From: Lachnospiraceae bacterium
GTDB taxonomy: Bacteria > Bacillota > Clostridia > Lachnospirales > Lachnospiraceae
Direction: 5' to 3'
Assembly (NCBI GenBank): GCA_017397645.1
Contig: JAFQIE010000018.1
Coordinates: 23,488-87,487 of the forward strand
Length of the DNA: 64,000 nt
In this document: positions 12,853-56,280 of the stretch, piece after piece
How the letters are laid out: every line of letters begins with the position of its first letter
Numbering within the stretch: the first letter of the stretch is position 1
The notes under the pieces: model-generated
Seen by the model: the letters and a program-made list of their open reading frames with translations, nothing else
Databases searched by the model: none
Told to the model about the DNA's origin: nothing
Translations under genes and position numbers: made by a program

Positions 12853-14034
12853 TTAAGGCGTTCCCTCTTGACATTCTACATACATCTCATAAAATCTCTC
12901 TGTATCAATCTGATATAGTCCATGGGCTTCATAGAATAATTTTGCGTTAGTATTTGCTAAAATCGGTGCACACATCACTTGTGCATAATCCGCTGCAGGA
13001 TGTGTATTAATCTCACAAAATTTTAATCCATCAGGAGTAATGATGACGTCAAATCCAAGATAATCTAACGAGGAAATATGCTGACATACCTGCTCAATTT
13101 TTTTCTTTACAACTGACCAATTGGGGAGTTTATACCCTTTCCATACAACATGAGTATCAGGATGTTCTTTGCATATCCATTTCCCATCAGGACAGAAACG
13201 TTTATAGCGAATACCAAAATCCTTGAATCTTCCAGTTTCAAAATCAAACCCAACTCCGATTCCTCCGGCGGAAAGATTGCTTGCTCCTCCAGATATAGAA
13301 GTGCCAAATCTTGCAAAAGAAACAATACATTGCCATTTAGATGAATCGTACGGTAATTCATAGGGTATTTTGACCATAATAACTCTTAAGGTACACTCAC
13401 TGTCTGTCCAAATTTTCGAAATCTCAGAATGCTGATATGCATATTCTGTAACTATATGGTTCCCCAACTGCGAAACCATCTCGTCAAAATTTTCTTGTGT
13501 GATCTGTTTGTTGTTTTCGTACAACATACCATTTTTATACTCAAGCTTCATAAATCCCCGGCCACCGGATGTACCTGAGTTCGGCTTTATGGCAAGTGTC
13601 CCCTTTTCTTTAAGCAAATTGATAATGAAATCTTTATTTTTTTCTATATGTTCCGGAGCATCCATAAGATATGTATAGTTACCATTATTCTCAACATACA
13701 AATAGTATTCTGGCATTGTGTCCTGACATCCATTACTATTCAAAATGTATTTCAATGTCAGTTTATCGTTTACCCATATTTTGAAATGATGATTGATTGG
13801 GTGAATCATGAAATAATTGTAATCCGGAAGATAATCGCGATAATTCTCTTCCGTTAAACCATACAATTCTACACGTCCAGGGTAAAACCCTTTAGACAGT
13901 GCCCATTCTTTTGTTTTGTCATCAGCAGCAAAAGCTTGTTCATCGTCAGAAAGTTTTTTAACAAACATCTTTGCCCATTTTGCATCCATGCCATTGTTTC
14001 TCATCAATTCCAACAGTTTTTCATAATTTGTCAT
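12853..14034 (-). CDS. sugar-transfer-associated ATP-grasp protein
   Basis: A 393-residue protein of the ATP-grasp fold. A glycine-rich nucleotide loop LAIKPNSGTSGGRGF lies near residues 147-161, and FCEINTHPAADYAQV near 343-357 supplies metal-binding Glu/Asn. The arrangement matches the ATPgrasp_ST family found in polysaccharide and glycopeptide clusters. Such enzymes activate a carboxylate as acyl phosphate and join it to an amine or thiol. It sits next to a second ATP-grasp gene (14053), which is unusual, and suggests that amide-linked substituents such as amino acids decorate the glycan. The chemistry is inferred from fold. Confidence 0.8.
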   Translation of the reverse strand: MTNYEKLLELMRNNGMDAKWAKMFVKKLSDDEQAFAADDKTKEWALSKGFYPGRVELYGLTEENYRDYLPDYNYFMIHPINHHFKIWVNDKLTLKYILNSNGCQDTMPEYYLYVENNGNYTYLMDAPEHIEKNKDFIINLLKEKGTLAIKPNSGTSGGRGFMKLEYKNGMLYENNKQITQENFDEMVSQLGNHIVTEYAYQHSEISKIWTDSECTLRVIMVKIPYELPYDSSKWQCIVSFARFGTSISGGASNLSAGGIGVGFDFETGRFKDFGIRYKRFCPDGKWICKEHPDTHVVWKGYKLPNWSVVKKKIEQVCQHISSLDYLGFDVIITPDGLKFCEINTHPAADYAQVMCAPILANTNAKLFYEAHGLYQIDTERFYEMYVECQEGTP

Positions 14035-14052
14035 TTTTACTCTCCCATACCA

Positions 14053-15288
14053 TTAGAACTTCAAATCAGTTAGCAAGTCTCTTCTTGTCATATCCATTCC
14101 ATGATTATCAATAACTCTAATTCTTTTTACCGTTTCAGCATGTTTTTTATTCATCTCTTCAATAGTGTCTGCCTGAATGGTAAAACCGGCAATTCTATCT
14201 CCGCTATTCTCAATTGTATCGAACCTAGCACCACACCATTTAAATAAATAATAGTCTGTTATAATCCCATCTTCTTTTAATTCTTCGAAACCTTCGAGAT
14301 GCTCAAAAACTCCGGGCTTACAATAGATAAATTCGTTGGCTATATAATTATTCTCCGTAATCACTTCACCAACATGCGGTTGGATTCCTAATGTCAAGTC
14401 AACAACAGCTGAAATTACATCAAATCCTGAAGTCTTGTTTATGAGTATATATTTTACGCTTCCTCCAGTTCTTGCGCTAAACTCTAAAACAGAGACCCGT
14501 TTGCCATCTGTAATCATTTGGATTAACATTGGCGTATTTTTTAGGTTGAATGCTTCGGTAATCTGCTGAGCAACTGAACGAACCAGCTCATGCACTTTTT
14601 CTGCAGTATCCTTCGCATACCGTCCTCTAAAAATGACAAACTTATCTCGCTCCGCAATTTTATCTGAGATGGAAATTGAAAGGATGTGAGGAACACCATT
14701 TTCAACATAGAGGTCAACACTTAATTCTTCTCCATCTATAAACTCTTCAATAATTGCCGTTTGCGTTCTGCTGAGTTTTACTGCTTTATGAAAAGCAATC
14801 TGCAGTTCTTCTATGTTTTCAACACGTTTTACACCTTTTGAACTATTGCAATCTACCGGCTTCACAATCAAAGGATACTTCATCTCTTTAATAAGTGACT
14901 CATCAAGTTCTGCCATTGTCACATGCTTCGCCGTAGGAATATTGTTTTTAACAAATACTTCCTTCATGTATTGTTTGTTTGTAACATTAAGGGCAGTCTG
15001 ATAATCGATATAACATGGTAGCCCTAACGCTTCTGATACATAGGCAACTGTCAATAACGCCTGGTCGGTACATGCTGTTATCAAAAAATCTACTTTCTGT
15101 GTTACTGCCAACTTCTTAATTGCTTCAACATCTAATGTTGATACTCTAAAAAAATCATCTGCATATGGCTTCGCAACAGGATTTTCGTAATAATCCGCAA
15201 GTATTGTATATATCCCTCTTTTTTTCAACTCATTAATTAACGCAATCTGAGGATATCCTCCGGCTAATACTAATGCTTTTTTGTTCAT
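14053..15288 (-). CDS. CarB/PurK-like ATP-grasp ligase
   Basis: A 411-residue protein with a Rossmann-like pre-ATP-grasp domain (VLAGGYPQIALINELKKRG at the N-terminus) followed by an ATP-grasp domain with YPLIVKPVDCNSSKGV near residues 137-152 and VLEFSARTGGSVKYILI near 262-278. It resembles the stand-alone carbamoyl-phosphate-synthase-like ligases that couple amino acids or other carboxylates to amines. The gene is 18 bases upstream of the other ATP-grasp gene and 12 bases downstream of a GT4 gene, so it is in the polysaccharide operon. Substrates are unknown. Confidence 0.8.
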   Translation of the reverse strand: MNKKALVLAGGYPQIALINELKKRGIYTILADYYENPVAKPYADDFFRVSTLDVEAIKKLAVTQKVDFLITACTDQALLTVAYVSEALGLPCYIDYQTALNVTNKQYMKEVFVKNNIPTAKHVTMAELDESLIKEMKYPLIVKPVDCNSSKGVKRVENIEELQIAFHKAVKLSRTQTAIIEEFIDGEELSVDLYVENGVPHILSISISDKIAERDKFVIFRGRYAKDTAEKVHELVRSVAQQITEAFNLKNTPMLIQMITDGKRVSVLEFSARTGGSVKYILINKTSGFDVISAVVDLTLGIQPHVGEVITENNYIANEFIYCKPGVFEHLEGFEELKEDGIITDYYLFKWCGARFDTIENSGDRIAGFTIQADTIEEMNKKHAETVKRIRVIDNHGMDMTRRDLLTDLKF

Positions 15289-15300
15289 ATTGCTTTCCTT

Positions 15301-16515
15301 TTATAACAATGATTGGTACAGGTCTATGAGCCTTGAATCATATTGAGTTGGATGAAACATATTCTTTGATTTTTCTATGATACGTTGACTATCATATGTG
15401 CTATGTTTTGAAGCCATACTCATCTTCTCCGCCAAGTCCTTCACATCTCCCGCTTTGGCCACATATCCGGTCACTCCATCTTCTACCAGTTCCGGCAATC
15501 CGCCATAGCCTGACACAATCACCGGCTTCCCCGCCGCCTGAGCCTCCATAATCGTGTAGGGACCATTTTCGTACCATTCACTTGGCAGGCAAACACAGAG
15601 TGCATTTGCGATGATATCTTTCAACTCTTGTCCGGATTTGAAGCCCAGCAGTTTGACTTTATCCTGCAATCCTTCTTGTTCGATTAATGCCTCTATCTGT
15701 TCCTTTACAGGGCCTGTCCCAACGATGTACAAGGGCTTGTCTACCTGTGCTTCTTTGTATGCCTTCACCAAGGTGAGAATGCCCTTTTCACGACTTAGAC
15801 GACCGAAATAGAGGAAGTAATCTCCCCCCTCCCGCTTGCAACCATATTCTGTGCCCTCAGGCAAAAAGTTTGGCATATGCACAACGGGACATTTTGCGAT
15901 TCCGGCTTCCTCTATTTTTTTCTTATAGAAGGCAGAAGGTGTGATAATCAAATCCATCTTCTGATATGTTTTTCTGATTTTATATACATAAGCTTCCAAA
16001 GTGGCTAATAAGCTCTTTAATTTGGAATCCTTCATACAACCTGTTTTAAAACAGTTCGTATAGTTCCCGTGTAGGCACTTTTCACAAACCTCTGTATGAT
16101 TTAACATTTGATAATTGGGGCATACGCTCTTTAAATCATGCGCCGTATATACCACAGGTATCTTATATTTCTTTGCCACATCAACAATGGAACCGGTCAA
16201 CTGGCTCTGGAAAATATTGAGATGTATGATATCGGGTTTTTCATCTTGAATCAGTTGTTCAAATTTCTTCTTTGCCTCAAAAGAGTATAGCATCTTGATG
16301 GCAGCCTTAATGGTCTGTAATTTGCCCATAGGCGCATTGAAATCCACATTTCCTACGAAGTACTTCTCTTGCTCACAGGGGAAGTTTTTTTCATCCTTCA
16401 TAGAAAAATATATCACTTCGCAACCGTGTTTTTTTAACAGCTCTCCGAGACCAAAATAATAGGTTTCAGAACCACCTTTGATATAATGAAATTTGTTTAC
16501 AAGCAATACTTTCAT
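15301..16515 (-). CDS. family 4 glycosyltransferase
   Basis: A 404-residue GT-B enzyme. GGSETYYFGLGELL at residues 14-27 is the acceptor-side loop, and NGPYTIMEAQAAGKPVI near residue 320 is the EX7E-type donor-binding motif of GT4. A cysteine cluster (Cys132, 144, 147, 155, 160) between the two domains is typical of one clade and might bind a metal. It overlaps the upstream DUF1972 gene by four bases. It is probably an early retaining transferase in repeat-unit assembly. Confidence 0.9.
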   Translation of the reverse strand: MKVLLVNKFHYIKGGSETYYFGLGELLKKHGCEVIYFSMKDEKNFPCEQEKYFVGNVDFNAPMGKLQTIKAAIKMLYSFEAKKKFEQLIQDEKPDIIHLNIFQSQLTGSIVDVAKKYKIPVVYTAHDLKSVCPNYQMLNHTEVCEKCLHGNYTNCFKTGCMKDSKLKSLLATLEAYVYKIRKTYQKMDLIITPSAFYKKKIEEAGIAKCPVVHMPNFLPEGTEYGCKREGGDYFLYFGRLSREKGILTLVKAYKEAQVDKPLYIVGTGPVKEQIEALIEQEGLQDKVKLLGFKSGQELKDIIANALCVCLPSEWYENGPYTIMEAQAAGKPVIVSGYGGLPELVEDGVTGYVAKAGDVKDLAEKMSMASKHSTYDSQRIIEKSKNMFHPTQYDSRLIDLYQSLL

Positions 16516-17669
16516 ACTGAAAATACCTTCTCATATTCTCCGGCAATAAATTCCCAACTGTAATTGTCTGCAATTCTTTGTTTTGCCGCTGTTCCAAGTT
16601 TTTGAATCTCTTCTGCATGCATATGGTCTGCTTCGTGAATCATCTCAGCAAGGTCACCCGCCGTCTTTGACCAATATAGCGCACTGTCCTCTGCCACTTC
16701 TTTGTTGAATCCAACATCCAGAAGCAGATTCAAATCCGTGCTTCCAAGTGCCTCCAACAGGCTGGGGTTTGTGCCACCCACTTCATGTCCATGGAAATAT
16801 CCGTAGGCATTTTCACGAATCTTCTTAAGGAGTTCCTGCTCATAAACAGTGCCAACGAATTTGATTCTTTTATCCTTCCGGAACTGTAATTTCTGTTCCA
16901 GCTCATCCAGGAATTTTTCGTTCACATTAGTGATAATGGCGAAATCCTTGGTGGTGTCGGAATTCATAAATTCTCTGATCATAGTTTCGTAGTTATTTTC
17001 CGGCACAAAGCGTCCGACCACCAGGTAGTAATTCTTTTTCTGAAGTTTTTTATCCTGATACCAACCGGTCAGCTTCGCATCTTCATCGTTCAATATGGAT
17101 GGCTTTATATCTGCACCATAGGCAATGAATGTGGTATTCGGTTGATATTTTTGATATGTGGTTTGAATATAGCGTTCTATGTTCTTACTGTCACAAATCA
17201 GAAGGTCCGCATGTTTCACCATCATGCCTTCGGAAATTTTCCAGTATTTTCGGACAGGAGCACTCCACTTGGCACGCATCCATTCGTGACCATCCGGATT
17301 CACATATACTTTACCACCAAATTGGTGGATTTTTTGCTGGAAGTATTTTGCAAAGGGTCCGATACGGCATGCCAATATGTATACTATCGAATTCTGGATG
17401 TGGTATTCTTGGATGTATTTGCAACATTTCTGTAATGCTGCCACGTCGTAGTATATCGCCTGGGCAGGGCCTATATTAGGCACCTTCACCTTAAAGCACC
17501 TTGCATTGTGGTACTCAAACTCGCCTTCTTCCGTGGCTTTACATGCCACATGATACTTGATACTGTCTGATGTCTGATGGTATTCTGTCAGTTTGTCCAC
17601 AAAGGTTTCATATCCGCCGTAGTTGCCGGGGATGCCTTTGGAGCCAACGATAAAGACATGTTGGACCAT
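16512..17669 (-). CDS. DUF1972-type glycosyltransferase (rhamnosyltransferase-like)
   Basis: A 385-residue protein starting MVQHVFIVGSKGIPGNYGGYETFVD; the KGIPGNYGGYET motif (residues 11-22) marks the DUF1972/Cps2T group, often beta-1,4-rhamnosyltransferases acting second in capsule assembly. The ATG at 17669 is chosen because GGAGG lies 7 bases upstream; the frame could extend to 17690 but without a better site. It is the first gene of the operon, directly behind the promoter at 17712-17740. No polyprenyl-phosphate sugar transferase precedes it here, so the priming enzyme must be encoded elsewhere. Confidence 0.88.
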   Translation of the reverse strand: MVQHVFIVGSKGIPGNYGGYETFVDKLTEYHQTSDSIKYHVACKATEEGEFEYHNARCFKVKVPNIGPAQAIYYDVAALQKCCKYIQEYHIQNSIVYILACRIGPFAKYFQQKIHQFGGKVYVNPDGHEWMRAKWSAPVRKYWKISEGMMVKHADLLICDSKNIERYIQTTYQKYQPNTTFIAYGADIKPSILNDEDAKLTGWYQDKKLQKKNYYLVVGRFVPENNYETMIREFMNSDTTKDFAIITNVNEKFLDELEQKLQFRKDKRIKFVGTVYEQELLKKIRENAYGYFHGHEVGGTNPSLLEALGSTDLNLLLDVGFNKEVAEDSALYWSKTAGDLAEMIHEADHMHAEEIQKLGTAAKQRIADNYSWEFIAGEYEKVFSV

Positions 17670-17711
17670 TGTTTGCCTCCTATAACCCAATAGTTAGACA
17701 TATTCTAGTTT

Positions 17712-17740
17712 ATTATAACCTAAAATTCACAATTTGTACA
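17712..17740 (-). promoter_or_regulatory. promoter of the polysaccharide operon
   Basis: Read on the minus strand, a perfect TATAAT (17712-17717) lies 17 bases from TGTACA (17735-17740), a 4/6 match to the -35 consensus. It is 43 bases upstream of the first capsule gene, which has a GGAGG site. This is the only good promoter seen ahead of the twelve-gene run to 4246, so it may drive the whole set. Confidence 0.6.
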
Positions 17741-17748
17741 CAGATAAT

Positions 17749-17810
17749 TCATCATTTTGTACAAACTGTAGTAAATACTACAGGGCGATGCCTACATTGG
17801 CACCGCCCTG
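17749..17810. promoter_or_regulatory. palindromes and hairpin upstream of the polysaccharide promoter
   Basis: Three dyads are stacked directly upstream of the promoter. TTTGTACAAA lies near 17756-17765; CTGTAGTA-AA-TACTACAG occupies 17766-17783; a 12-bp stem with a 6-base loop occupies 17781-17810 (CAGGGCGATGCC with GGCACCGCCCTG). The last pairs fully only in minus-strand RNA, where the single mismatch becomes G-U. No T run follows, so it is not a simple terminator. The dyads look like operator sites for a dimeric regulator. Confidence 0.45.
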
Positions 17811-17915
17811 ATATGACAGTTTCCCGCCTCGTCAAAGAATTATGCGTTATTTTCTGCAATTTACACAACTGACAAAAACTTTACTCTATTTACTGACAAA
17901 ATTTAATTTACATAG

Positions 17916-17950
17916 AAAAAAAGGATCCTAACACTACTGTTAAGACCCTT
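17916..17950 (-). terminator. Rho-independent terminator, minus strand
   Basis: On the minus strand a 12-bp stem (17921-17932 with 17939-17950, two G-U pairs, 6-base loop) is followed by seven T residues. It lies 166 bases beyond the stop of the DUF3800 gene and upstream of the capsule promoter, so it separates the two transcription units. Confidence 0.75.
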
Positions 17951-18115
17951 ACTAATCTTTGGTTGATGGGTTCGACTGGTTGCTTACTACTCTACATATT
18001 CGTAAGGATATGCTTCATAAACGGTTAACTAAAGTTCATTAGCACCTCACAACCACAATCCCATTAATCTATATTATAGACACATTCATACGAATGTCAA
18101 TACATATTGATTGAT
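17951..18115. other. noncoding stretch after DUF3800 gene
   Basis: The rest of the 425-base gap between the DUF3800 and capsule genes. I find no convincing open frame, tRNA or repeat in it. A GGGTTCGAC string near 17968 recalls a T-loop but has no cloverleaf around it. Confidence 0.4.
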
Positions 18116-18898
18116 TTATGATAAAATTTTTAGACCATACTTATATTTCCCTTCCATTACACTGCCGTCATATAGTTTATCTCTTATACTTTTTGAAAAA
18201 TCCCTGTTTTTCGGCTTCATCATGGCCACATATCTACCCAATGTGTTCGGAACAAAATCTGCAAGTTGCAATCCTGCAATATTATTCTTTTTCATTAAAA
18301 AGCATATTTCTTTCAAATGCTCCTGTATTGTTTTCGGCGCATAATATAGTGTACCTAACGCTTTCAATTCGTAGAGTCTTTGTTGAATCTTCATATTCTG
18401 TTCTGGCTGCATCGCTTCATAGCAAATATCTCCAATAGCATTATTTTTAATTAAAAACTGACAATAATTCTCAACCAGCAGTTGGATTGCTATTGTAAGC
18501 TGATTATTCATATTTACCTCTCCATAACGAGAATATAAGGCACCTTTGTCTATGCATACTCCAATTGTTATCATATTCGAGTTTTTAAACAATTTCGAAA
18601 GTTCATTATATAGCATAGTAACCGTATGCTTACTTTGAAACACCTGATAATGTGCCGGCAATTTATTCATCCATTTCGAATTCATTCGATTACTCGCAAA
18701 ACCCACATCTTTCTCATGTAATATGTATTGCTCACATCCCGCAGATTTATTCCACACTAATTGTTTAATTTCATTTAATCCATTTTCCACCACGGAATAA
18801 TCGTTGTTTTTTATAATAACTCCGCTCATAACAAAAAACCTATTTCCAGAGTCATTAAATGTTTCACTTTCGTCCATATATAGCGTATAATCTGCCAT
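18116..18898 (-). CDS. DUF3800 domain protein
   Basis: A 260-residue protein starting MADYTLYMDESETFND; the YxDES motif at residues 7-11 followed by a beta strand and a later acidic residue are typical of DUF3800, a family with a predicted RNase H-like fold. Function is not established; the family is common in prophages, mobile islands and near defence genes. The ATG at 18898 has AAGGGG five bases upstream. It lies 133 bases downstream of the small-protein pair, the gap being filled by a repeated element (18936-18991), so it may be the last gene of the Panacea module or an independent neighbour. Confidence 0.82.
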   Translation of the reverse strand: MADYTLYMDESETFNDSGNRFFVMSGVIIKNNDYSVVENGLNEIKQLVWNKSAGCEQYILHEKDVGFASNRMNSKWMNKLPAHYQVFQSKHTVTMLYNELSKLFKNSNMITIGVCIDKGALYSRYGEVNMNNQLTIAIQLLVENYCQFLIKNNAIGDICYEAMQPEQNMKIQQRLYELKALGTLYYAPKTIQEHLKEICFLMKKNNIAGLQLADFVPNTLGRYVAMMKPKNRDFSKSIRDKLYDGSVMEGKYKYGLKILS

Positions 18899-18935
18899 AC
18901 TAACCCCTTCTTTCCACTAAATATACAATTTTCTT

Positions 18936-18991
18936 TTTTGGGTTTTCGCGTTATGGGAACATTAACAAAGAATAAAAGAGCCAAAAGAAAG
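18936..18991. repeat. repeated structured element, copy A
   Basis: About 56 bases that are nearly identical to 20868-20924 in the same orientation; only a handful of positions differ across the alignment. Both copies contain outer arms TTTTGG and CCAAAA in inverted order and an inner GTTA/TAAC dyad. Copy A lies between the second small protein gene and the DUF3800 gene. The two copies bracket the Panacea gene and the two small genes. Confidence 0.75.
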
Positions 18992-19031
18992 TTTCGTTTT
19001 AAAAAATTGCACATTTTTAATTTGTTTATCA

Positions 19032-19307
19032 CTATTGGTTTATTAATCCTTGAATCTGCTCTGGTGAAAAATCGAAATACTCAACAATTTCCTCAGAGGT
19101 TAACTTACCATCCGCCAAAAGTCTCTTGATACTGTCTTTAATACAACGCTTCATTAATATTTTGGCGCCTATCTTAACTCGTTCATTTACCATCGTCTCC
19201 ATCGCCGGAATATACTCTTCCATAATTTTATCCGGCAATAAGTCTACCGCCATAAAAGGCGCCATTTCCAATCCCCATTTATATGCCAATTCTTCAAATT
19301 TACTCAT
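19032..19307 (-). CDS. small helical protein, Panacea module
   Basis: A 91-residue protein beginning MSKFEELAYKWGLEMAP, predicted all-helical, without a signal peptide or membrane segment. GGAGG sits 8 bases ahead of the ATG. The C-terminal part LLADGKLTSEEIVEYFDFSPEQI resembles the helical tail seen in Rpn/YhgA nuclease-type proteins (pattern L..G.s.eeI......s.eqI), but the nuclease domain is absent. Its N-terminus is related to that of the upstream small protein. It begins 3 bases after that gene's stop. Function unknown; a toxin, antitoxin or regulator role is possible. Confidence 0.7.
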   Translation of the reverse strand: MSKFEELAYKWGLEMAPFMAVDLLPDKIMEEYIPAMETMVNERVKIGAKILMKRCIKDSIKRLLADGKLTSEEIVEYFDFSPEQIQGLINQ

Positions 19308-19310
19308 ATT

Positions 19311-19577
19311 TTAATCCTCCGGTCTCGTATCGTATTTATATGCAATTCTTTCTATATTCTTCCCCCTCAACTCAGCTTGCTGTATCAATTGATTCCCTTT
19401 CTCAAGTAAGTTGTTTAATCCAACAGCAAGTTCCTCGGGGGTCATGTTTTCCTGTTCAAAAAGGTTTTCCTGCCATTCTTCCAGCACCTTTTTAATCGTG
19501 TACTGAACTAACTTCTTTATCGTTTTTGGTAATGCTTCCGCACACCATTCTGCCGCAAGTTTTTCGTAATCTTCCAT
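19311..19577 (-). CDS. small helical protein, Panacea module
   Basis: An 88-residue protein beginning MEDYEKLAAEWCAEALP. It shares the N-terminal pattern (F/Y)E(E/K)LA..W..E..P with the next gene, so the two look like diverged duplicates or parts of one family. It is rich in Glu, Leu and Lys and predicted helical, cytosolic. AGGGGG lies upstream of the ATG at 19577, which follows the Panacea gene stop by 5 bases. I do not recognise a named family. Tight linkage implies joint expression and perhaps a complex with the Panacea protein. Confidence 0.7.
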   Translation of the reverse strand: MEDYEKLAAEWCAEALPKTIKKLVQYTIKKVLEEWQENLFEQENMTPEELAVGLNNLLEKGNQLIQQAELRGKNIERIAYKYDTRPED

Positions 19578-19582
19578 TATAC

Positions 19583-20632
19583 TTATGCCCCCTTCTCTCT
19601 TTCATTTGAAATCGTATGCAGATTCTTAGCATACTCAAAAGAAATTTCTTGTCCTAAAGGTGTTATTCTGTACGCTTCTTCTTCGTGCATTCTATCCACA
19701 ATTTGTTTTTTTGACATTCTGCCAAAATTATCTATAATAATATCCAATATAGAAATATCGTCTTTGGTAAGATGTTCATAAACAGGCGCTTCGTCTAAGT
19801 AAAAAAAATATGTACTTCCCTCCCCCTCGTCAATTTCGTCACAGGGCACCCCATCAAGATTAATGATCGAATGATGTCCTATCGGTAAAGCACCCATAGA
19901 CATAGCAAGATACACTAAGCCGGTAATGGCCGTTCCTCTCATTTTATAAGACAAGGCATCCGCATACCATAGTAAGTTCATTAGTTTCACCTTGTATAAC
20001 CTGGTAACCCGGGATAAAGTTGAAAAGTATCGGATTATGTCTATCACCTTATCCAGTGACAAGCACACATTGCCGTTTAAAGCAGAGATATCTTTATATT
20101 TGATATACTCAGCTTCTATCGCTTTTCTCAAATATACATCTCTCTTACTTTCGTATAGAAGTTTCGCATATTTCAAATATCGCTGGTATGCACGTTCAGC
20201 CAGATTTTTCTTTGATTCAGTCAATAAGGAGAGATACCATTCTGTATCATCCTGTATCTTCTTCAATATTGCATCATGCGCTCTATCCTGTACTTGGTGA
20301 CTTTCATATCTGGTTATCGTCTTTTCTCCCCAGCCAAGCAGAATGCATAGGTCTCTCTGCGAAATATCATACGCCACACGAACATTTGATATTTCATCAG
20401 ATGTAAGCAACCCTTCTGCTTTTCGATACGCGTCTTTAAGGCTAATGTCATTGTATTGTAACTGGTTCTCATCAGTGTACAATTCATTCGTATTGCAGCA
20501 ATAGAAATATTGCGCTTCATACTCTACTTTTCTTTTTTTGAAAGAAGTACACTCTATGACAGATACAACGTCCACTTGGTGTTCTTCCATACAGCATGTA
20601 CAAAGACGCATTTCACTCCTAATAACATTCAT
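19583..20632 (-). CDS. MqsA-type zinc finger/HTH protein with Panacea (SocA-like) domain
   Basis: A 349-residue protein in three parts. Residues 10-50 hold a cysteine cluster (CTCC at 11-14, YCC at 44-46) like the MqsA/YgiT zinc-binding domain. Residues 77-112 are a helix-turn-helix (ISQRDLCILLGWGEKTITRYES). Residues 193-330 match the Panacea/SocA/DUF4065 domain (VKLMNLLWYADALSYKMRGTAITGL). Panacea proteins are antitoxins that neutralise diverse toxins, and MqsA-like domains autoregulate. So this is probably an antitoxin and repressor of its own operon, with a palindrome on the promoter. The toxin would be one of the following genes. ATG at 20632 has AAGGAG upstream. Confidence 0.85.
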   Translation of the reverse strand: MNVIRSEMRLCTCCMEEHQVDVVSVIECTSFKKRKVEYEAQYFYCCNTNELYTDENQLQYNDISLKDAYRKAEGLLTSDEISNVRVAYDISQRDLCILLGWGEKTITRYESHQVQDRAHDAILKKIQDDTEWYLSLLTESKKNLAERAYQRYLKYAKLLYESKRDVYLRKAIEAEYIKYKDISALNGNVCLSLDKVIDIIRYFSTLSRVTRLYKVKLMNLLWYADALSYKMRGTAITGLVYLAMSMGALPIGHHSIINLDGVPCDEIDEGEGSTYFFYLDEAPVYEHLTKDDISILDIIIDNFGRMSKKQIVDRMHEEEAYRITPLGQEISFEYAKNLHTISNEREKGA

Positions 20633-20693
20633 GTTAGTAGCTCCTTCTAACTAGAAAGCTAAATGCAACTTCATTATCATATACCGTTAACTA

Positions 20694-20741
20694 GGTATCA
20701 TTTGATACCATAATACTATTATATTATAATTTCCATGTCAA
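20694..20741 (-). promoter_or_regulatory. promoter and palindromic operator of the Panacea module
   Basis: On the minus strand TTGACA (20736-20741) and TAGTAT (20713-20718) are exactly 17 bases apart. Just downstream, across the expected start point, lies a perfect palindrome GGTATCA-TT-TGATACC (20694-20709). A repressor bound there would block initiation, which fits autoregulation by the HTH-bearing first gene. Confidence 0.65.
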
Positions 20742-20760
20742 GTACCGTTTTTTTTATACT

Positions 20761-20827
20761 TGAAGACACAATTTGTGACTTCAAAACTTTTTCAGCTTCG
20801 TTTAAAGTCGGATTTTTCGACTTTAAA
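20761..20827. repeat. two consecutive palindromic hairpins
   Basis: A 23-base imperfect palindrome with TGAAG/CTTCA ends (20761-20783) is followed by a perfect 10-bp stem TTTAAAGTCG/CGACTTTAAA with a 7-base loop (20801-20827). They lie upstream of the Panacea promoter in a 356-base noncoding gap. Purpose unknown. Confidence 0.55.
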
Positions 20828-20867
20828 AATTCGTCTGGTGCTTCACCTCATACCCTTAGATTTCTAC

Positions 20868-20924
20868 TTTTGGATTTTCGCGTTAAGAGAACCTTAACAA
20901 TGAATAAAAGAACCAAAAGAAAAG
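20868..20924. repeat. repeated structured element, copy B
   Basis: Second copy of the 56-base element at 18936-18991. On the minus strand it reads CTTTTGG, then a perfect GTTAAG/CTTAAC hairpin, then CCAAAAG. Both copies keep the outer arms. It abuts the terminator of the TIGR04086 gene. Together the copies flank the Panacea gene and the two small genes like an insertion boundary. Confidence 0.75.
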
Positions 20925-20948
20925 GTGTACATTTGAACTGTACACCTT
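20917..20948 (-). terminator. Rho-independent terminator after TIGR04086 gene
   Basis: A perfect 10-bp stem AAGGTGTACA/TGTACACCTT (20922-20931 and 20939-20948) with a 7-base loop is followed on the minus strand by TTTTCTTTT. It lies 40 bases after the stop of the TIGR04086 gene. Confidence 0.75.
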
Positions 20949-20988
20949 GATGCTAACACTATATATCCTTTATCGTCAAGAGCAAATT

Positions 20989-21372
20989 CTACTGCCCCTT
21001 ACTGAACATCCCGCCCAGCATTCCGCCTGCCGCACATAATACGAAGGTGGTCAAAAAGAATTTGGATCCTTCCTCATGTCCGCCAACGAAGGCAGAAACT
21101 ATCGCTAGCAGTGCATAATACAGGCATCCTGCCAACAAGCCCCATAGGAACTTGCGTTTTTCCATCTTGCTGCCCGCCATCCAGCCACCAAAAGCGGTCA
21201 CCAGTAAATAGATTAAGATAACAGAAATGGAAACCGCTTTCTCTCCCCAGCCAAACTGATACAGCAAAAAAGCGAGGATGAGCAAAAGCACTCCGGTCAA
21301 AATACTGCAATACAGTAATAATTTAGCAAAAAACACAATACCAGCCTTGTTTTTATTGAAAACATTATTCAT
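20989..21372 (-). CDS. TIGR04086 family membrane protein
   Basis: A 127-residue protein starting MNNVFNKNKAGIVFFAKLL with four hydrophobic segments (about residues 10-35, 40-62, 75-95, 100-122). The GGWMAGSKMEKRKFLWGLLAG loop is characteristic of the clostridial TIGR04086 membrane family, whose function is not known. I chose the ATG at 21372 with AAGGT upstream; a longer frame runs to 21432 but adds a charged, non-matching extension. It is 84 bases downstream of the Na/Pi cotransporter gene and ends at a strong terminator. Confidence 0.78.
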   Translation of the reverse strand: MNNVFNKNKAGIVFFAKLLLYCSILTGVLLLILAFLLYQFGWGEKAVSISVILIYLLVTAFGGWMAGSKMEKRKFLWGLLAGCLYYALLAIVSAFVGGHEEGSKFFLTTFVLCAAGGMLGGMFSKGQ

Positions 21373-21456
21373 AGGATTTACCTTAAAACATCTTTGTGTA
21401 ATCCTATGCTTGATTCCGAAAAAAATGAACAAGATTTCAAAAGGAATCTGCCCCTA

Positions 21457-23229
21457 TCAAGGCATTTGGTATTTTTCCTTGTACTTCATCACGTTGTTCC
21501 TAAATTCCGTGTTGTTTTCCTGCTTCAAATACTCCAAATAGTGATGGGCATCAAACTCATTGCCACGCATTTGCTGAAGTACTGCAATAGCTACGTTGGA
21601 ACAATGGTCGGACACGCGTTCCAGATTGGTGCTGATGTCAGATAGTACGAATCCCAATTCAATGGTGCAATTGCCCTGTTTCAAACGGCTGATATGACGG
21701 GCCTTCACTTCCAGATTAAGTGCATCCACCACTTCCTCCAGCGGTTCTACCAAAGAAGCAAGGGCAGTGTCATTCTCACAAAAGCTTTGAACGGTCAAAT
21801 CCAAGCTCTCTCGTACCGCACCCACATAGACTTCAACTTCTTTCATGGCACCCTCTGAAAAAGCGATTTGTTTCTCATACATTTCACGGGCCGCTTCCAT
21901 GAGATTGCGGGCATGATCGGAAATTCTCTCAAAGTCTCCGATACAATGAAGCACAGTTGTCATCAAATGGCTGTCCGCATTGGTCATGTCGCCGGGATTC
22001 AGTTTTACCAGGTAATTACCTATCTGGTCCTCATACTTATCGATAATGCCTTCCAGTTCTGTGACGCGTTCCGCTTTTGCACTATCATATCCATGCATCA
22101 GTTCAACCGCCATATCAAAGGTATCCCTGGTCAGCCGAGCCATGGCCATGGCTGCCGCCTTACTGCGGTCAATTGCCAAAGAAGGCATTTCCATAAATCG
22201 GGGCTCCAAATACTGCAGTGGAGCCATTGCTTCGTCTGTACTCTCCTGCTCCTGATCCTCACGCACACTGATGGTTGCCAGTTTCACCAAACCTTTAGAA
22301 AAAGGTAACAATACAAGTGTCGCCACTATATTGAAAATACTGTGAACGGTTGCGATTCCAAAGGGCGTTGCCGCCTGTTCCATAAACGCAAAAGGTCGGA
22401 CAGCATGAATCACATAGAAGGCGATCATAAACAGGAATGTGCCAATCAAGTTGAAATACAAGTGAATCAAGGAGGCTCTCTTTGCATTTTTGCTGGCTCC
22501 CACACTGGAAATCATAGCTGTCACGCAGGTACCGATGTTTTGACCCATGATAATGGGCAACGCCGTGTTATACCCCACTGCTCCGGTAAGACACAATGCC
22601 TGCAGAATACCTACGGAGGCAGAGGAGGACTGAATCACTGCGGTTAGAATAATACCTGCTAAGAGGCCTAACAGGGGATTGGAAAATTTAACCAATATAT
22701 TAGTGAATTCCGGCACATCCCGCAAGGGCTTCACTGCATTACTCATAGTATCCATACCATTCATCAGAATGGTAAATCCAATCAGAATCATCGCTGTATT
22801 CTTCAGTTTATCCCTTTTGGAAAACATAATAATAGCCACGCCTACAATGGCCAGAATAGGGCCAAAGGAGGATGGCTTACATAATTTCAAAAACAGAGAA
22901 GTGTCCTCGATTCCGGCAAGGCCCAAAATCCAGGATGTCACTGTAGTACCTATATTGGCACCCATGATAATACCAACTGCCTGTTGCAGTTTCATGATGC
23001 CGGAGTTTACAAAACCAACTACCATAACTGTGGTTGCGGAGGAGGATTGAATGACCGCCGTCACCCCCATACCAACCAGCACTGCTTTGAGTGGCGTGTT
23101 GGTAAGTTTTTCCAAAAACTGTTCCAGTTTGCCGCCGGACATTTTTGCCAGGCCATCACCAAGCAAATGCATACCAAACAAAAACAATGCTAAACCACTA
23201 ATTGCATTCAGTACATCAAAAATCGTCAT
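21457..23229 (-). CDS. Na/Pi cotransporter family protein (NptA-like, PhoU-like tail)
   Basis: A 590-residue protein. The first 320 residues form a polytopic membrane domain with the duplicated QSSSA motif (VIQSSSATTVMVVGF near residue 60, VIQSSSASVGILQAL near residue 200) that defines the NptA/SLC34 phosphate transporters. The remaining 240 residues are a soluble helical PhoU-like domain, probably regulatory. It would import phosphate with sodium, or as reported for relatives act in phosphate homeostasis. AAAGG precedes the ATG at 23229. It is the usual length for the bacterial two-domain form. Confidence 0.93.
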   Translation of the reverse strand: MTIFDVLNAISGLALFLFGMHLLGDGLAKMSGGKLEQFLEKLTNTPLKAVLVGMGVTAVIQSSSATTVMVVGFVNSGIMKLQQAVGIIMGANIGTTVTSWILGLAGIEDTSLFLKLCKPSSFGPILAIVGVAIIMFSKRDKLKNTAMILIGFTILMNGMDTMSNAVKPLRDVPEFTNILVKFSNPLLGLLAGIILTAVIQSSSASVGILQALCLTGAVGYNTALPIIMGQNIGTCVTAMISSVGASKNAKRASLIHLYFNLIGTFLFMIAFYVIHAVRPFAFMEQAATPFGIATVHSIFNIVATLVLLPFSKGLVKLATISVREDQEQESTDEAMAPLQYLEPRFMEMPSLAIDRSKAAAMAMARLTRDTFDMAVELMHGYDSAKAERVTELEGIIDKYEDQIGNYLVKLNPGDMTNADSHLMTTVLHCIGDFERISDHARNLMEAAREMYEKQIAFSEGAMKEVEVYVGAVRESLDLTVQSFCENDTALASLVEPLEEVVDALNLEVKARHISRLKQGNCTIELGFVLSDISTNLERVSDHCSNVAIAVLQQMRGNEFDAHHYLEYLKQENNTEFRNNVMKYKEKYQMP

Positions 23230-23409
23230 CTTTTTTACCTTTAGTCCCGGTTACTTCTTCCTAAGTCACCTTCTTCCACGGACTACCTTTCTTATTTTCT
23301 TTATATTTCCATTTTGGATTGTATCATACCTCTTTGCATTTTTCTATCGTTTTTTTCTACTAAATTTATACTATAAGTTTTATCATTCTTGTACTATATT
23401 TGCCATTTC

Positions 23410-23934
23410 TTATATGGAATCCAAAATCCCCTGTGCAATCGCTATCGCAATATTGTTAAATTGCGCATCAAACAGGCGGTTATCCGCATCTGTATTGATA
23501 AATCCCACTTCCACCAGTGCCGCCGGCATGTAAGTGTCGTTGAGCACCGACAGGTTTTTCCTCTCGTTTACTCCCTGGTTTTGAAATCCAACCGCCTCTA
23601 GTCTTTCGTTGATGTTGGCTGCCAAATCCCCCGCTTTGGAATTTCGGTTGAACACCAATGTTTCAATGCCGGTATATTGATTGGGGTAAGGGCTGGAATT
23701 GCGGTGCAGGGAAACAAAATAATCTGCCCCTGCAGCATTGGCCTCCATTGCCTTCTGATACGGCGTTTCATAGATATCCTCGGTGCGTGTATATACCACG
23801 TCCACTCCGCTGTTTTCTAATATTTCTCCCACTTCCAACGCGAGACGAAGTACATCATCCTTTTCCCTGCGACCGTTATAGATTGCGCCGGGATTCACGC
23901 CACCATGTCCTGCGTCTATTACTACTTTTGCCAT
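23410..23934 (-). CDS. N-acetylmuramoyl-L-alanine amidase (amidase_3)
   Basis: A 174-residue zinc amidase starting MAKVVIDAGHGGVNPG. Zinc ligands are His10, Glu24 and His77, and Glu142 in LVEVGFINT is the catalytic acid. It cleaves the bond between muramic acid and the stem peptide. The ATG at 23934 is preceded by AGGT; the frame continues to 24033 but that extension gives no signal peptide. The lack of any export signal or cell-wall domain is odd for an enzyme of the wall. It may be released by lysis, act inside the forespore or mother cell, or be secreted by another route. Confidence 0.88.
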   Translation of the reverse strand: MAKVVIDAGHGGVNPGAIYNGRREKDDVLRLALEVGEILENSGVDVVYTRTEDIYETPYQKAMEANAAGADYFVSLHRNSSPYPNQYTGIETLVFNRNSKAGDLAANINERLEAVGFQNQGVNERKNLSVLNDTYMPAALVEVGFINTDADNRLFDAQFNNIAIAIAQGILDSI

Positions 23935-23971
23935 AATGATTACCTGTAACCGTTTTTCTAGTATTATATGC

Positions 23972-24003
23972 AAAAAAAGAGAGGATGGTTTCTCCTCTCT
24001 TTT
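23972..24003 (-). terminator. Rho-independent terminator after ABC exporter genes
   Basis: A perfect 11-bp stem (23975-23985 with 23993-24003) with a T run on each side, so it can act in both directions. It sits 31 bases after the stop of the ABC transporter gene at 24034. Confidence 0.8.
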
Positions 24004-24033
24004 GTAACTACTCGTATTCGTTTTCAAATACAT

Positions 24034-25758
24034 TTAAAACTGTGCTTCATACAATTCCCTATAGAATCCACCCCGAGCAAGCAGTGTTTCATGATTGCCC
24101 TGTTCAATGATATTGCCATCTTTCATCACCAATATGATATCCGCTTCACGAATGGTAGAAAGTCTGTGAGCCACGATGAAACTGGTTCTTCCCTCCATCA
24201 TTTTGGCAAAAGCTCTTTGGATTCTCATCTCGGTTCTGGTATCAATGGAGGAGGTAGCCTCATCTAATATCAACATAGGCGGCAACGCCAGCATCACTCT
24301 GGCAATACATAAGAGCTGCTTCTGTCCTTGGGAAAGATTGCCTCCGTTTTCTGTAATCAGGGTATGATATCCTTCCGGCAAACGTTTGATAAAACTGTGT
24401 GCGTGGGCTTCCTTCGCGGCCTGCATGACTTCGTCGTCAGTAGCATCCGGCTTACCGATACGGATATTGTCCAGGATGGTACCTTCTTTTAACCAGGTCT
24501 CCTGCAATACCATACCAAAGTTTTCCCGCAAGGATTCTCTGGTCAGATGTCGGATATCCGTGCCATCGATAGTGATACTGCCTCCATCCACGTCATAGAA
24601 ACGCATCAGCAGGTTAATCAGTGTCGTCTTGCCGCATCCGGTGGGGCCTACAATAGCCACTCTCTGTCCCGGTTTGACATGAAGAGAAACATTTTGAATC
24701 AGCCTCTTATTCGGGTCATAGGAAAAGGAGACATCACGAAATACCACTTCTCCCCGAACCTCTTCCAACACAACCGCGTCCACGTCATCCGGTGTCACAG
24801 GTTCTTCGTCAATCAAGGCAAAGATTCGTCCTGCGCAAACCAATGCATTCTGCAATTCCGTAATCACACCTGATATTTCGTTAAAAGGCTTTGTGTATTG
24901 GTTCGCATAGCTTAGGAAACAGGACAATCTACCTACGGAAATGCCGCCCTTGATGGCAAGCAATGCTCCAAACACGCCTACACCTGCATAGACCAGACTG
25001 TTGACAAAGCGTGTGGATGGATTGGTCAGGGAAGAAAAGAAAATCGCCCTTAGGGAACTTTTTTCTAATCTATCGTTGATGTCCGCAAATTTGTCTATCA
25101 TATTTTCTTCCTGGGAAAATACTTTGACCACCTTCTGGTTACCCACCACCTCTTCTATCAAAGAGGTTTGCTCTGCTCGGGTTTCTGACTGGACCTTAAA
25201 CATGGCATAAGTCTTCGTAGAAATAAACCTTGCCACCACAAAAGACAAGGGTGTGATACATACCACCACTAGCGCAATGGGTACATTGGTCACCAACATA
25301 AATATCAAAGTACCGAGAATGGTAAGCACTCCGGTAAAGAACTGTGTGAATCCCATCAGTAATCCATCCGCAAAGGTATCCACATCTGCTACCACTCTGC
25401 CGACCATATCTCCTATAGGTTTTTGATCCAAGTATTTTAGTGGCAATTTTTGTATCCTACGGAAGGCTTCTTCCCGGATGTCTTTTACCACGTGATATGT
25501 GATGTGATTATTGCAGGTATTCATCAGCCACTGGGCTGCTCCTGCTACCACAATACACACTCCCATTTTGAATAATATATCGCGGATTGCCATAAAATCC
25601 ACCTGCCCTTTGGCAAGGATGTGGTCAATGGCATCTCCGGTTAAGATGGGCACATAAAGGGTCAATACTACACTCACGGTAGCTAGTCCTATGGATACAC
25701 CCACCCAAAACCAATATTTTTTAATATATTTCATTACCTTTTTCAGGGTTTGCATCAT
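24034..25758 (-). CDS. ABC exporter, permease-ATPase half (canonical site)
   Basis: A 574-residue half-transporter: six membrane helices in residues 1-310, then an ATPase with Walker A GPTGCGKTT near residue 367, the signature LSQGQKQ near 467 and Walker B LILDEATSS with the catalytic Glu. It overlaps its partner gene by four bases (ATGA, 25755-25758). With the partner it forms a heterodimeric exporter of the LmrCD/TM287-288 type, exporting drugs, lipids or peptides. Here the signature has Q in place of the second G. The exported compound is unknown. Confidence 0.93.
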   Translation of the reverse strand: MMQTLKKVMKYIKKYWFWVGVSIGLATVSVVLTLYVPILTGDAIDHILAKGQVDFMAIRDILFKMGVCIVVAGAAQWLMNTCNNHITYHVVKDIREEAFRRIQKLPLKYLDQKPIGDMVGRVVADVDTFADGLLMGFTQFFTGVLTILGTLIFMLVTNVPIALVVVCITPLSFVVARFISTKTYAMFKVQSETRAEQTSLIEEVVGNQKVVKVFSQEENMIDKFADINDRLEKSSLRAIFFSSLTNPSTRFVNSLVYAGVGVFGALLAIKGGISVGRLSCFLSYANQYTKPFNEISGVITELQNALVCAGRIFALIDEEPVTPDDVDAVVLEEVRGEVVFRDVSFSYDPNKRLIQNVSLHVKPGQRVAIVGPTGCGKTTLINLLMRFYDVDGGSITIDGTDIRHLTRESLRENFGMVLQETWLKEGTILDNIRIGKPDATDDEVMQAAKEAHAHSFIKRLPEGYHTLITENGGNLSQGQKQLLCIARVMLALPPMLILDEATSSIDTRTEMRIQRAFAKMMEGRTSFIVAHRLSTIREADIILVMKDGNIIEQGNHETLLARGGFYRELYEAQF

Positions 25759-27512
25759 GATTTTCTGTCCCCCTTTTCTACAGACTCTTCCACAGAATAC
25801 TGGGACTCATAGATTTCCTGATATACAGGACAGTTGACAAGCAATTCGTCGTGGGTGCCCACCCCTGCCAGTTCACCATCATCCAACACAAGAATCTTAT
25901 CTGCATGACGCACACTGGATGCGCGTTGGGACACAATAAACGTGGTGGTGCTTCCTTCGTATTCCTGAATGGCGCGACGCAGTGCTGCCTCTGTAGCATA
26001 GTCCAGAGCAGAAGCACTGTCATCCAGTATCAGAATCTCCGGATTGCGCACCAGGGCTCTGGCAATAGTCACTCTCTGCCTTTGCCCACCGGAAAGGTTT
26101 TTACCATTTTGTGCCACTCTGGCACGCAAGCCACCCTTCTCTTCTATCACTGATTTGATTTGCGCACGTTCTAATGCCATCCACATTTCTTCCTGTGTGG
26201 CATCTTCTTTGCCGAAGGCAAGATTACTTTCAATGGTACCTTCAAACAAAACCGCCTTTTGAGGAACCATACCAATCATGTTTCGCAGGGTCTGTGTGTC
26301 CATTTCATTGACATCCACCCCGGACACAGACACCGTTCCTTCAGTCACAGGATATAACCCGGCAAGCAGTTGTACCAAAGTGGTCTTACCGGAGCCGGTA
26401 CTGCCAATGATACCCACGGTTTCGCCTTTTTGCACATTGAAGTGAATATCCTTCAAGGTTTCGTCTCCTGCGCCGGGATATCGGTAGCTCACATGGTCAA
26501 AGGCAACAAAAGGTGCCTCCCTTTGCACTGTAGTTTCTCCATAAATCATACCAAGACGCTGGACATCCGTACCGGGTATTTCAAACACATCCGCCACTCT
26601 GTCCGCACAGGCAAGGGCTTTGGTGATGGTAATCATAAGATTAGCAAATTTCACCAATTCTACTAAAATTTGCGACATATAGTTTACAATAGCAATCACT
26701 TCACCCTGTGTTATGGTGCCCACATTGACTTGAATGGCACCGGTATAAATTAACACAATGGTAGCCACGTTTACGATGATGAAGGTGATGGGATTCATAA
26801 TGGCACTGATTTTGCCCACAAAGGTCTGTAATCCGGCTAATTTTTCCGTATGCTCTTCAAACTTTACAGTCTCTGCATCTTCTTCACAAAAAGCACGAAT
26901 CACACGAACGCCGGTTAAATTTTCACGGGTTAAGCGAAGCACCTGCTCCAATGCTTTCTGCACCTTTTTATACAGGGGCATGGTAATCCACATAATACCA
27001 AATACAACCACAGCAAGTACCGGAATCGCTACCACAAAAACAAGCGCACTTTTCACATCTATGGTAAACGCCATAATCATGGCACCAAATACGATTATCG
27101 GAGAGCGCAAAAAAAGGCGGAGTACCATGTTGACACCGGACTGTACTTGATTCACATCACTGGTCATGCGGGTTATCATGGCAGATGTACCAGCCTCATC
27201 AATATGGGTAAAATCAAACCCTTGGATATGCTCAAATAAAGCCTGTCTCATTTTAGCAGATACGCCCACTGCAGCCTTTGCCGCGAAGAACTGGGCCGTT
27301 ACAGATACGGTCAGTCCAATCGCTGCCAACACCACCAACACCAAGCTCATGCGTCCAATAAGACCTCTGTCTGCCTCCGCAATGCCCCTATCAATAATTG
27401 CCGCCATAACTAAGGGCACAAAGAGTTCGAAAACAGCCTCCAATAACTTGAAGGTGGGAGCTAACACTATTTCTTTTTTGTAATCTCTGAAAAATCTAAG
27501 CAACCTCTTCAT
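25755..27512 (-). CDS. ABC exporter, permease-ATPase half (degenerate site)
   Basis: A 585-residue half-transporter with six helices and a C-terminal ATPase: Walker A GSTGSGKTT near residue 375, intact signature NLSGGQRQRV and Walker B LILDDSASALD. The residue that should be the catalytic Glu after Walker B is Asp. Together with the neighbour's normal Walker B and altered signature, this is the pattern of a heterodimer with one consensus and one degenerate ATP site. Translation of the two is coupled. Confidence 0.93.
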   Translation of the reverse strand: MKRLLRFFRDYKKEIVLAPTFKLLEAVFELFVPLVMAAIIDRGIAEADRGLIGRMSLVLVVLAAIGLTVSVTAQFFAAKAAVGVSAKMRQALFEHIQGFDFTHIDEAGTSAMITRMTSDVNQVQSGVNMVLRLFLRSPIIVFGAMIMAFTIDVKSALVFVVAIPVLAVVVFGIMWITMPLYKKVQKALEQVLRLTRENLTGVRVIRAFCEEDAETVKFEEHTEKLAGLQTFVGKISAIMNPITFIIVNVATIVLIYTGAIQVNVGTITQGEVIAIVNYMSQILVELVKFANLMITITKALACADRVADVFEIPGTDVQRLGMIYGETTVQREAPFVAFDHVSYRYPGAGDETLKDIHFNVQKGETVGIIGSTGSGKTTLVQLLAGLYPVTEGTVSVSGVDVNEMDTQTLRNMIGMVPQKAVLFEGTIESNLAFGKEDATQEEMWMALERAQIKSVIEEKGGLRARVAQNGKNLSGGQRQRVTIARALVRNPEILILDDSASALDYATEAALRRAIQEYEGSTTTFIVSQRASSVRHADKILVLDDGELAGVGTHDELLVNCPVYQEIYESQYSVEESVEKGDRKS

Positions 27513-56034: not shown

Positions 56035-56055
56035 ATCTTGCCTCCCACTATAATA

Positions 56056-56280
56056 TTTAGGCAGTAGCGTGATTTTGGGGAGCACAATGCCTAATTCTTG
56101 ACTTTTCGTTGCCTTTTTAGGCATTGGCGGCATCTATTGACCTTCAATACCTAATTTTCATCATATCATTGCACTTTTTAGGCATTGGCGACACCTTTTG
56201 ACCTTCAACACCTAATTTTCACCCTCTCACCGCCTTTTTTAGGCATTAGCACCACTTTTCGGACCTCTAATACCGAAAGA
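56056..56280. repeat. four tandem copies of a 61-base repeat
   Basis: The word AGGCA recurs at 56059, 56119, 56180 and 56241, spacing 60, 61 and 61. Units 2 and 3 are the most alike, sharing TTTTTAGGCATTGGCG and TTGACCTTCAA(T/C)ACCTAATTTTCA; units 1 and 4 are diverged. Each unit pairs a TTAGGCA with a TGCCTAA or TACCTAA, making an imperfect inverted repeat. No open frame runs through. It fills the 371-base gap between uxuB and the FAD oxidoreductase gene. Confidence 0.8.

Follow-up and report, generated by a model that had tools for sequence, protein, structure and literature searches.

A toxin-less Panacea antitoxin gene in an operon with a free-standing RpnS-like protein in a Lachnospiraceae genome

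Results

Four genes on the minus strand, at positions 18116-20632 of a 64-kb stretch of a Lachnospiraceae genome (hereafter the window, which comes from a 1.81-Mb assembly estimated to be 74% complete), are the subject of this study. The first, panA (19583-20632), encodes P0001, a 349-amino-acid (aa) antitoxin that joins an MqsA-type zinc domain, a helix-turn-helix (HTH) domain and a Panacea domain and that lacks a toxin gene at its locus. It is followed after 5 bases by the gene of small protein P0002 (88 aa, 19311-19577), a probable diverged relative of the tail of Rpn nucleases, after a further 3 bases by that of small protein P0003 (91 aa, 19032-19307), a free-standing RpnS-like protein, and after 133 bases by a DUF3800 gene (P0004, 260 aa, 18116-18898), a downstream neighbour with a candidate link only. 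Each of the four start codons is preceded by a ribosome-site-like sequence as judged by eye. The first-pass annotation, made from the sequence alone, had described the same four frames at these positions, and its domain calls were equally sound, as TIGR03830 (81.8 bits, cut-off 61.8) and SocA_Panacea PF13274 (64.8 bits, cut-off 25.7) in P0001 and DUF3800 PF12686 (58.7 bits, cut-off 21) in P0004 all exceed their thresholds, the Pfam MqsA_antitoxin model remaining below its own (19.3 versus 30). It was also right to call the first gene antitoxin-like, P0001 being of the known zinc-binding domain (ZBD)-HTH-Panacea kind.

What sets panA apart from its relatives is the region upstream. A genome scan with eight aligned antitoxins, from which the best 80 of 177 were taken, together with phage records, viral contigs and genus genomes, provided 92 loci for examination; these are the closest ones and include some near-duplicates. 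Identical antitoxins are found in L019 and L101 and in L020 and L140 (genus genomes and loci labelled Acetatifactor sp., respectively), which makes an Acetatifactor-like Lachnospiraceae the probable host of the window. In 80 of the 92 the signal of a toxin some 145 aa long was found by tblastn within 900 bp upstream, nine loci having supplied the query toxins and hence matching by construction. Partial signals are present in L088, L108, L117, L118, L131 and L107, the last cut by a contig end. A modelled member of this upstream family has the MqsR fold in its predicted structure; nothing significant was returned for the model by Foldseek on its own, and MqsR emerged on a second look. Among the 12 loci without a signal, L129, L161 and L164 offer too little sequence, L029 contains a Pfam MqsR_toxin match above cut-off (28.8 versus 26.2), and six (L087, L089, L128, L139, L149 and L165) are toxin-less relatives. 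At the locus represented by L020 and L140 (L020:67-2523), whose antitoxin is closely related to P0001, the upstream position of the MqsR-type toxin is taken by a HipA-like gene (HipA_C, E 9.1e-50), which may reflect an exchange of partners.

Upstream of the window's panA there is neither a toxin frame nor a tblastn toxin signal, the rest of the genome not having been searched for MqsR, and this absence of the usual upstream gene had been overlooked in the first-pass annotation. In the tree P0001 is nested among MqsR-paired antitoxins as the sister of L103 and L125, both of which carry the toxin. The window antitoxin descends from MqsR-paired antitoxins, none of whose toxins is left at the locus.

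Besides this ancestry, the locus has kept the operator of MqsR-PanA operons, an exact palindrome that the relatives carry in front of the toxin gene. The palindrome GGTATCAAATGATACC (20694-20709, without strand) stands 62-77 bp before the panA start codon, and the panA operator is the sole exact match to GGTATCANNTGATACC in the window. Of 70 upstream regions, counting that of the window, 47 contain the 7-mer GGTATCA, which outside the window lies ahead of the toxin gene. The 16-mer pattern was matched exactly at 42 of 271 loci, the 42 including five copies of the window locus. The core GTATCANNTGATAC stands 41-91 bp ahead of the antitoxin in five of the six toxin-less relatives, and the sixth, L139, has just a half-site. 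A predicted promoter, TTGACA-17-TAGTAT, lies at 20713-20741 on the minus strand before panA (10/12 in a consensus scan, a consensus match only).

Toxin loss has left visible traces in three of the four sister pairs tried. Between operator and antitoxin, L087 lacks about 414 bp relative to L096, with flanks 95-96% identical; about 366 bp are missing from L117 relative to L110 (flanks 96-99% identical) and about 303 bp from L108 relative to L115 (flanks 88-92% identical). For the pair L139/L124 the alignment is confined to the antitoxin and gave no deletion point. Separate deletions have removed the MqsR-type toxin wholly or partly in several lineages, with the operator and the Panacea antitoxin being kept. 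An empty insertion site for the window's arrangement was not found: in none of 29 relatives' loci, covering about 1.5 kb on each side, do the window's other flanking genes stand beside DUF3792, and in the 10 relatives read different genes come after it.

Neither small protein matches a family above cut-off in Pfam, NCBIfam, PADLOC or PHROGs, and the best Pfam names for P0002 were rejected as weak, chance-like matches (E 0.017 and worse). The genome has a resident rpn gene on contig C23, which encodes a 305-aa Rpn/PDDEXK_2 protein (PDDEXK_2 at E 7.9e-11), and P0003 matches the C-terminal tail of this protein with E 1.8e-8. Against a tail profile built without own-genome rows it scores 40.8 bits, a value reached by none of 1000 shuffles. 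The relationship extends to the DNA level, where P0003 with its ribosome site and 3' flank aligns with the resident rpn tail at a score of 58 versus 33.5 for the best of 200 shuffles; for the 3' flank alone the score was equalled by 4 of 2000 shuffles. By eye, the resident Rpn tail shows a start with its own ribosome site at the matching point and, besides, MAxx four-residue repeats; an internal ribosome site with start and four-residue repeats are both among the features described for RpnS (PMC10327210). The P0003 frame itself is free-standing, with no nuclease part upstream, and is not translated from inside an rpn gene. Its structural model consists of two short N-terminal helices, one 40-residue helix and two short ones (pLDDT 84, pTM 0.48), for which Foldseek returned nothing at E ≤0.001 and mainly DNA-binding proteins of helix-turn-helix type at E 0.7 or worse. 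As judged by sequence, P0003 derives from an Rpn C-terminal tail, beginning at the tail's own ribosome site, and is a free-standing counterpart of RpnS.

That the two small proteins are related to each other, as the first-pass annotation had it, holds by Smith-Waterman comparison (score 56 versus 26.6 +/- 5.0 for shuffles, none of 2000 as high) and not by BLASTP, which gave no alignment. P0002 is probably a diverged sister or duplicate of P0003.

Rpn tails outside rpn genes are not confined to the window. A profile of P0003 and two tails matched in 56 of 397 family genomes, own genome included. With the window excluded, 31 tail matches lie in frames of ≤130 aa; 28 were retrieved, the other three having in-frame stops, and 26 of these 28 loci yielded a short tail frame. 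Several are remnants of rpn genes (L208, L213, L216 and L222) and others are solitary. In L202 (1995-3157) and L215 (1371-2616) a free tail follows less than 300 bp downstream of a long rpn frame. The PDDEXK_2 score of this frame is 51 bits in L202 (cut-off 27.4) and falls just under the same cut-off in L215 (25.9), where the frame shares 37.6% identity with the resident Rpn (E 3.6e-58); the extra tail looks as if RpnS had been duplicated outside the gene. The long frame beside the tail in L197 was rejected as rpn, having only the tail region in common and no PDDEXK_2 match.

An arrangement that resembles that of the window as a looser look-alike occurs in another genus, in L207 (740-3797), as one case within chance. 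There, a Panacea antitoxin with an N-terminal remnant of an MqsR-type toxin fused in frame (by eye) is followed after 88 bp by a free tail. Beyond the tail lies another Panacea antitoxin (73.8 bits), and the toxin-like gene before this second antitoxin resembles that of L022 by eye and matches no MqsR model. Among 25 genomes holding both tail and Panacea matches, the window genome excluded, 0.107 close pairs within 2 kb were expected and one genome (G427) was seen (P 0.10), and with pairing at this chance level a general association of the small proteins with Panacea genes was rejected. No free tail stands beside the antitoxin in 99 Panacea loci searched with a tail profile that includes window-derived rows; the two tail matches, in a 287-aa frame of L140 (1702-2565) and a 91-aa frame of L151 (2076-2351), are on the opposite strand and more than 2 kb from the antitoxin. 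Likewise, homologues of the small proteins or DUF3800 are near the antitoxin in none of the 92 relatives (tblastn, E 0.1), six of which show less than 1 kb downstream, save for a 36-residue DUF3800 stretch in L135 (E 0.07). A lack of co-occurrence of the small proteins with Panacea genes was one of three observations that the first-pass annotation had listed as speaking against its proposed module, and no small-protein homologue was found nearby in the 92 Panacea relatives.

The fourth gene, DUF3800, is sporadic in the genus, where a threshold of E 1e-10 leaves two of 61 genomes with it, one of them its own, and was found in two phage and 15 plasmid records. In four annotated plasmid contexts no Panacea gene neighbours it; in one of these, a C. 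difficile plasmid, DUF3800 and Panacea genes are 15 kb apart. DUF3800 has no close linkage to Panacea genes. No minus-strand terminator or promoter is predicted in the gap after P0003, so co-transcription of DUF3800 with the panA operon is possible; a predicted terminator (17921-17950, minus strand, 13-pair stem with T tail, a consensus match only) lies 3' of DUF3800.

The same gap contains a 55-bp repeat (18936-18990, plus strand), 89% identical to a copy upstream of panA (20868-20922, plus strand). With E <1e-5 the genome has four copies, the others at C23:7349-7430 and C30:443-500, and these stand upstream of four frames, namely panA, DUF3800, the resident rpn and a 77-aa frame on C30 resembling an ORF6N-type protein. 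Folded as a hairpin, two of three copies are better than shuffles (z -2.7 and -2.9) and the third is not (0.47). Elsewhere in the window, at 56053-56234, a 61-nt repeat occurs three times in tandem with a spacing of 60-61 nt and 61-84% identity to the reference copy.

Discussion

The first-pass annotation had proposed an undescribed toxin-antitoxin module with a small protein or DUF3800 as the toxin. This proposal is not supported, as ZBD-HTH-Panacea antitoxins of MqsR have been described (PMC10440598), MqsR-type toxins precede panA in the relatives, and P0003 is related to an antitoxin domain. Given the origin of PanA, the absence of a toxin at the locus, the kept operator and the Rpn-tail ancestry of P0003, we favour, at an even balance of belief and doubt, the reading that the window holds an mqsR-panA operon minus its toxin, whose PanA and RpnS-like proteins act as free antitoxins. 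PanA would still repress its own promoter via the operator, and both PanA and the RpnS-like proteins would be made as free antitoxins, which could blunt MqsR-type and Rpn-type toxins arriving with mobile elements, or the resident Rpn. DUF3800 would be a neighbour, perhaps co-transcribed, and not the effector. More tentatively, and with the doubts outweighing the arguments, the locus might be a true antitoxin-only operon, in which a self-regulated PanA recruited RpnS-type antitoxins so that one transcript provides antidotes against RNase and DNA nuclease toxins, two classes unrelated to each other; if true, this would keep incoming or resident systems from addicting the cell or damaging it collaterally.

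Several observations weigh against free antitoxins at this locus. P0001 sits on a branch of length 1.18 (median 0.17; 0.74 versus 0.141 under a simpler model), and in just one of its 63 nearest relatives does the Panacea domain depart as much from the consensus; relaxed constraint would yield both. P0002 scores 4.9 bits against the Rpn-tail profile free of own-genome rows, equalled by 46 of 1000 shuffles, and has an hhalign probability of 6.6%, the shuffles against P0003 being the one line that ties it to Rpn. A free Rpn tail is in many cases what remains of an rpn gene. Given the high variability of RpnS proteins, P0003, which shares about 33% identity with the resident tail, might fail to bind the resident Rpn. 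Relatives of P0003 (E 1e-5) and of P0002 (E 1e-3) are absent from the 396 other family genomes, and within the genus P0003 has, besides its own genome, three weak matches, the best at 8.2e-5. Finally, in one reported test, a Herbaspirillum PanA failed to rescue its MqsR in E. coli (PMC8832971). P0002 gave weak matches only in the 60 other genus genomes (best E 0.011); neither small protein was found in viral contigs or phages, nor P0003 in plasmids, a search that covered P0003 and not P0002.

The long branch, the recurrent toxin deletions in the family, the lack of a conserved association and the persistence of Rpn tails as short frames after rpn decay (as in L208, L213, L216 and L222) would also be expected of a dying mqsR-panA operon beside rpn leftovers with no current function. 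Such decay seems to us unlikely, however, with four intact frames, each preceded by a ribosome-site-like sequence (by eye), and an exact operator. Moreover, P0001 keeps 147 of the 167 positions conserved in ≥90% of its 63 nearest relatives (zinc domain 20/21, HTH 41/45, linker 26/29, Panacea 60/72), which on so long a branch is unlike an unconstrained gene.

Panacea antitoxins are reported to swap partners (PMC8832971, PMC10440598), and after the loss of MqsR PanA might neutralise a new downstream toxin, either a small protein or DUF3800. The tight packing of the first three genes, the HipA-like gene upstream at the L020/L140 locus, the joint, if 15 kb distant, presence of DUF3800 and Panacea genes on the C. 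difficile plasmid and the P0001 Panacea domain, the fastest among 82 rows with 5.5% of the tree (zinc domain 2.8%, HTH 3.4%), speak for such an exchange. Fast Panacea evolution fits relaxed sensing or a new partner, but is given little weight, because the Panacea-to-rest rate ratio of 1.77 is the second of 32 rows, below that of L146, which has a toxin upstream. With P0003 homologous to an antitoxin domain, no conserved co-occurrence and no Panacea gene next to DUF3800 in any of the four annotated plasmid contexts, we regard a new downstream toxin as improbable. That P0002 and P0003, adjacent, related and very divergent small genes 3 bases apart, form a toxin-antitoxin pair of their own independent of PanA is very unlikely, P0003 being homologous to an antitoxin domain already known and neither protein matching any enzyme family.

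The favoured reading, free antitoxins left by toxin loss, would mean that antitoxins have been caught in the act of being set free, the Panacea antitoxin with its operator in several lineages and RpnS-like tails outside rpn. It raises two testable questions, one about the reason for which solitary Panacea antitoxins are retained and the other about the ability of RpnS domains to work in trans, and it warns that a Panacea gene accompanied by small genes of no assigned family need not equal a new toxin-antitoxin pair. In a literature search over titles and abstract openings, no description of free-standing RpnS genes or toxin-less Panacea operons was found; in the text available of the Panacea papers (PMC8832971, PMC10440598) the words 'orphan' and 'solitary', and in that of the Rpn paper (PMC10327210) the words 'solitary', 'stand-alone' and 'orphan', had no match.

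Comparison with known systems

MqsR-PanA pairs, orphan antitoxins and RpnS are each already known. DUF3800 proteins, for which an RNase H-like fold has been reported from AlphaFold2 (PMC10910872), are matched by P0004 above the PF12686 cut-off; P0004 differs in having no Cas12 or tetratricopeptide repeat partner at 14000-26000 and in lying 133 bp after an antitoxin operon. Orphan antitoxins and anti-addiction modules have been described (PMC7192599, PMC7354431), and the window antitoxin, kept without a toxin, is like them but differs in belonging to the Panacea class and in being joined by antitoxins of another type, the protection it would confer being putative. MqsR-PanA type II toxin-antitoxin pairs are on record from Bacillus fungorum and Lactobacillus rossiae (PMC10440598); the window shares with them the ZBD-HTH-Panacea antitoxin, close relatives of which have an MqsR-type toxin upstream, but has no MqsR gene at the locus, the operator directly before the antitoxin and extra small genes downstream. 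RpnS, lastly, is described as the intragenic antitoxin of Rpn nucleases, made from the Rpn C-terminal tail (PMC10327210). P0003 resembles it in its homologous tail domain and in the same start point and ribosome site, and may also resemble it in fold, RpnAS being a helix bundle with a long first helix and the P0003 model having a long helix with two short ones after it. It differs from RpnS in lacking the four-residue repeats and in having a free-standing gene that shares an operon with a Panacea antitoxin.
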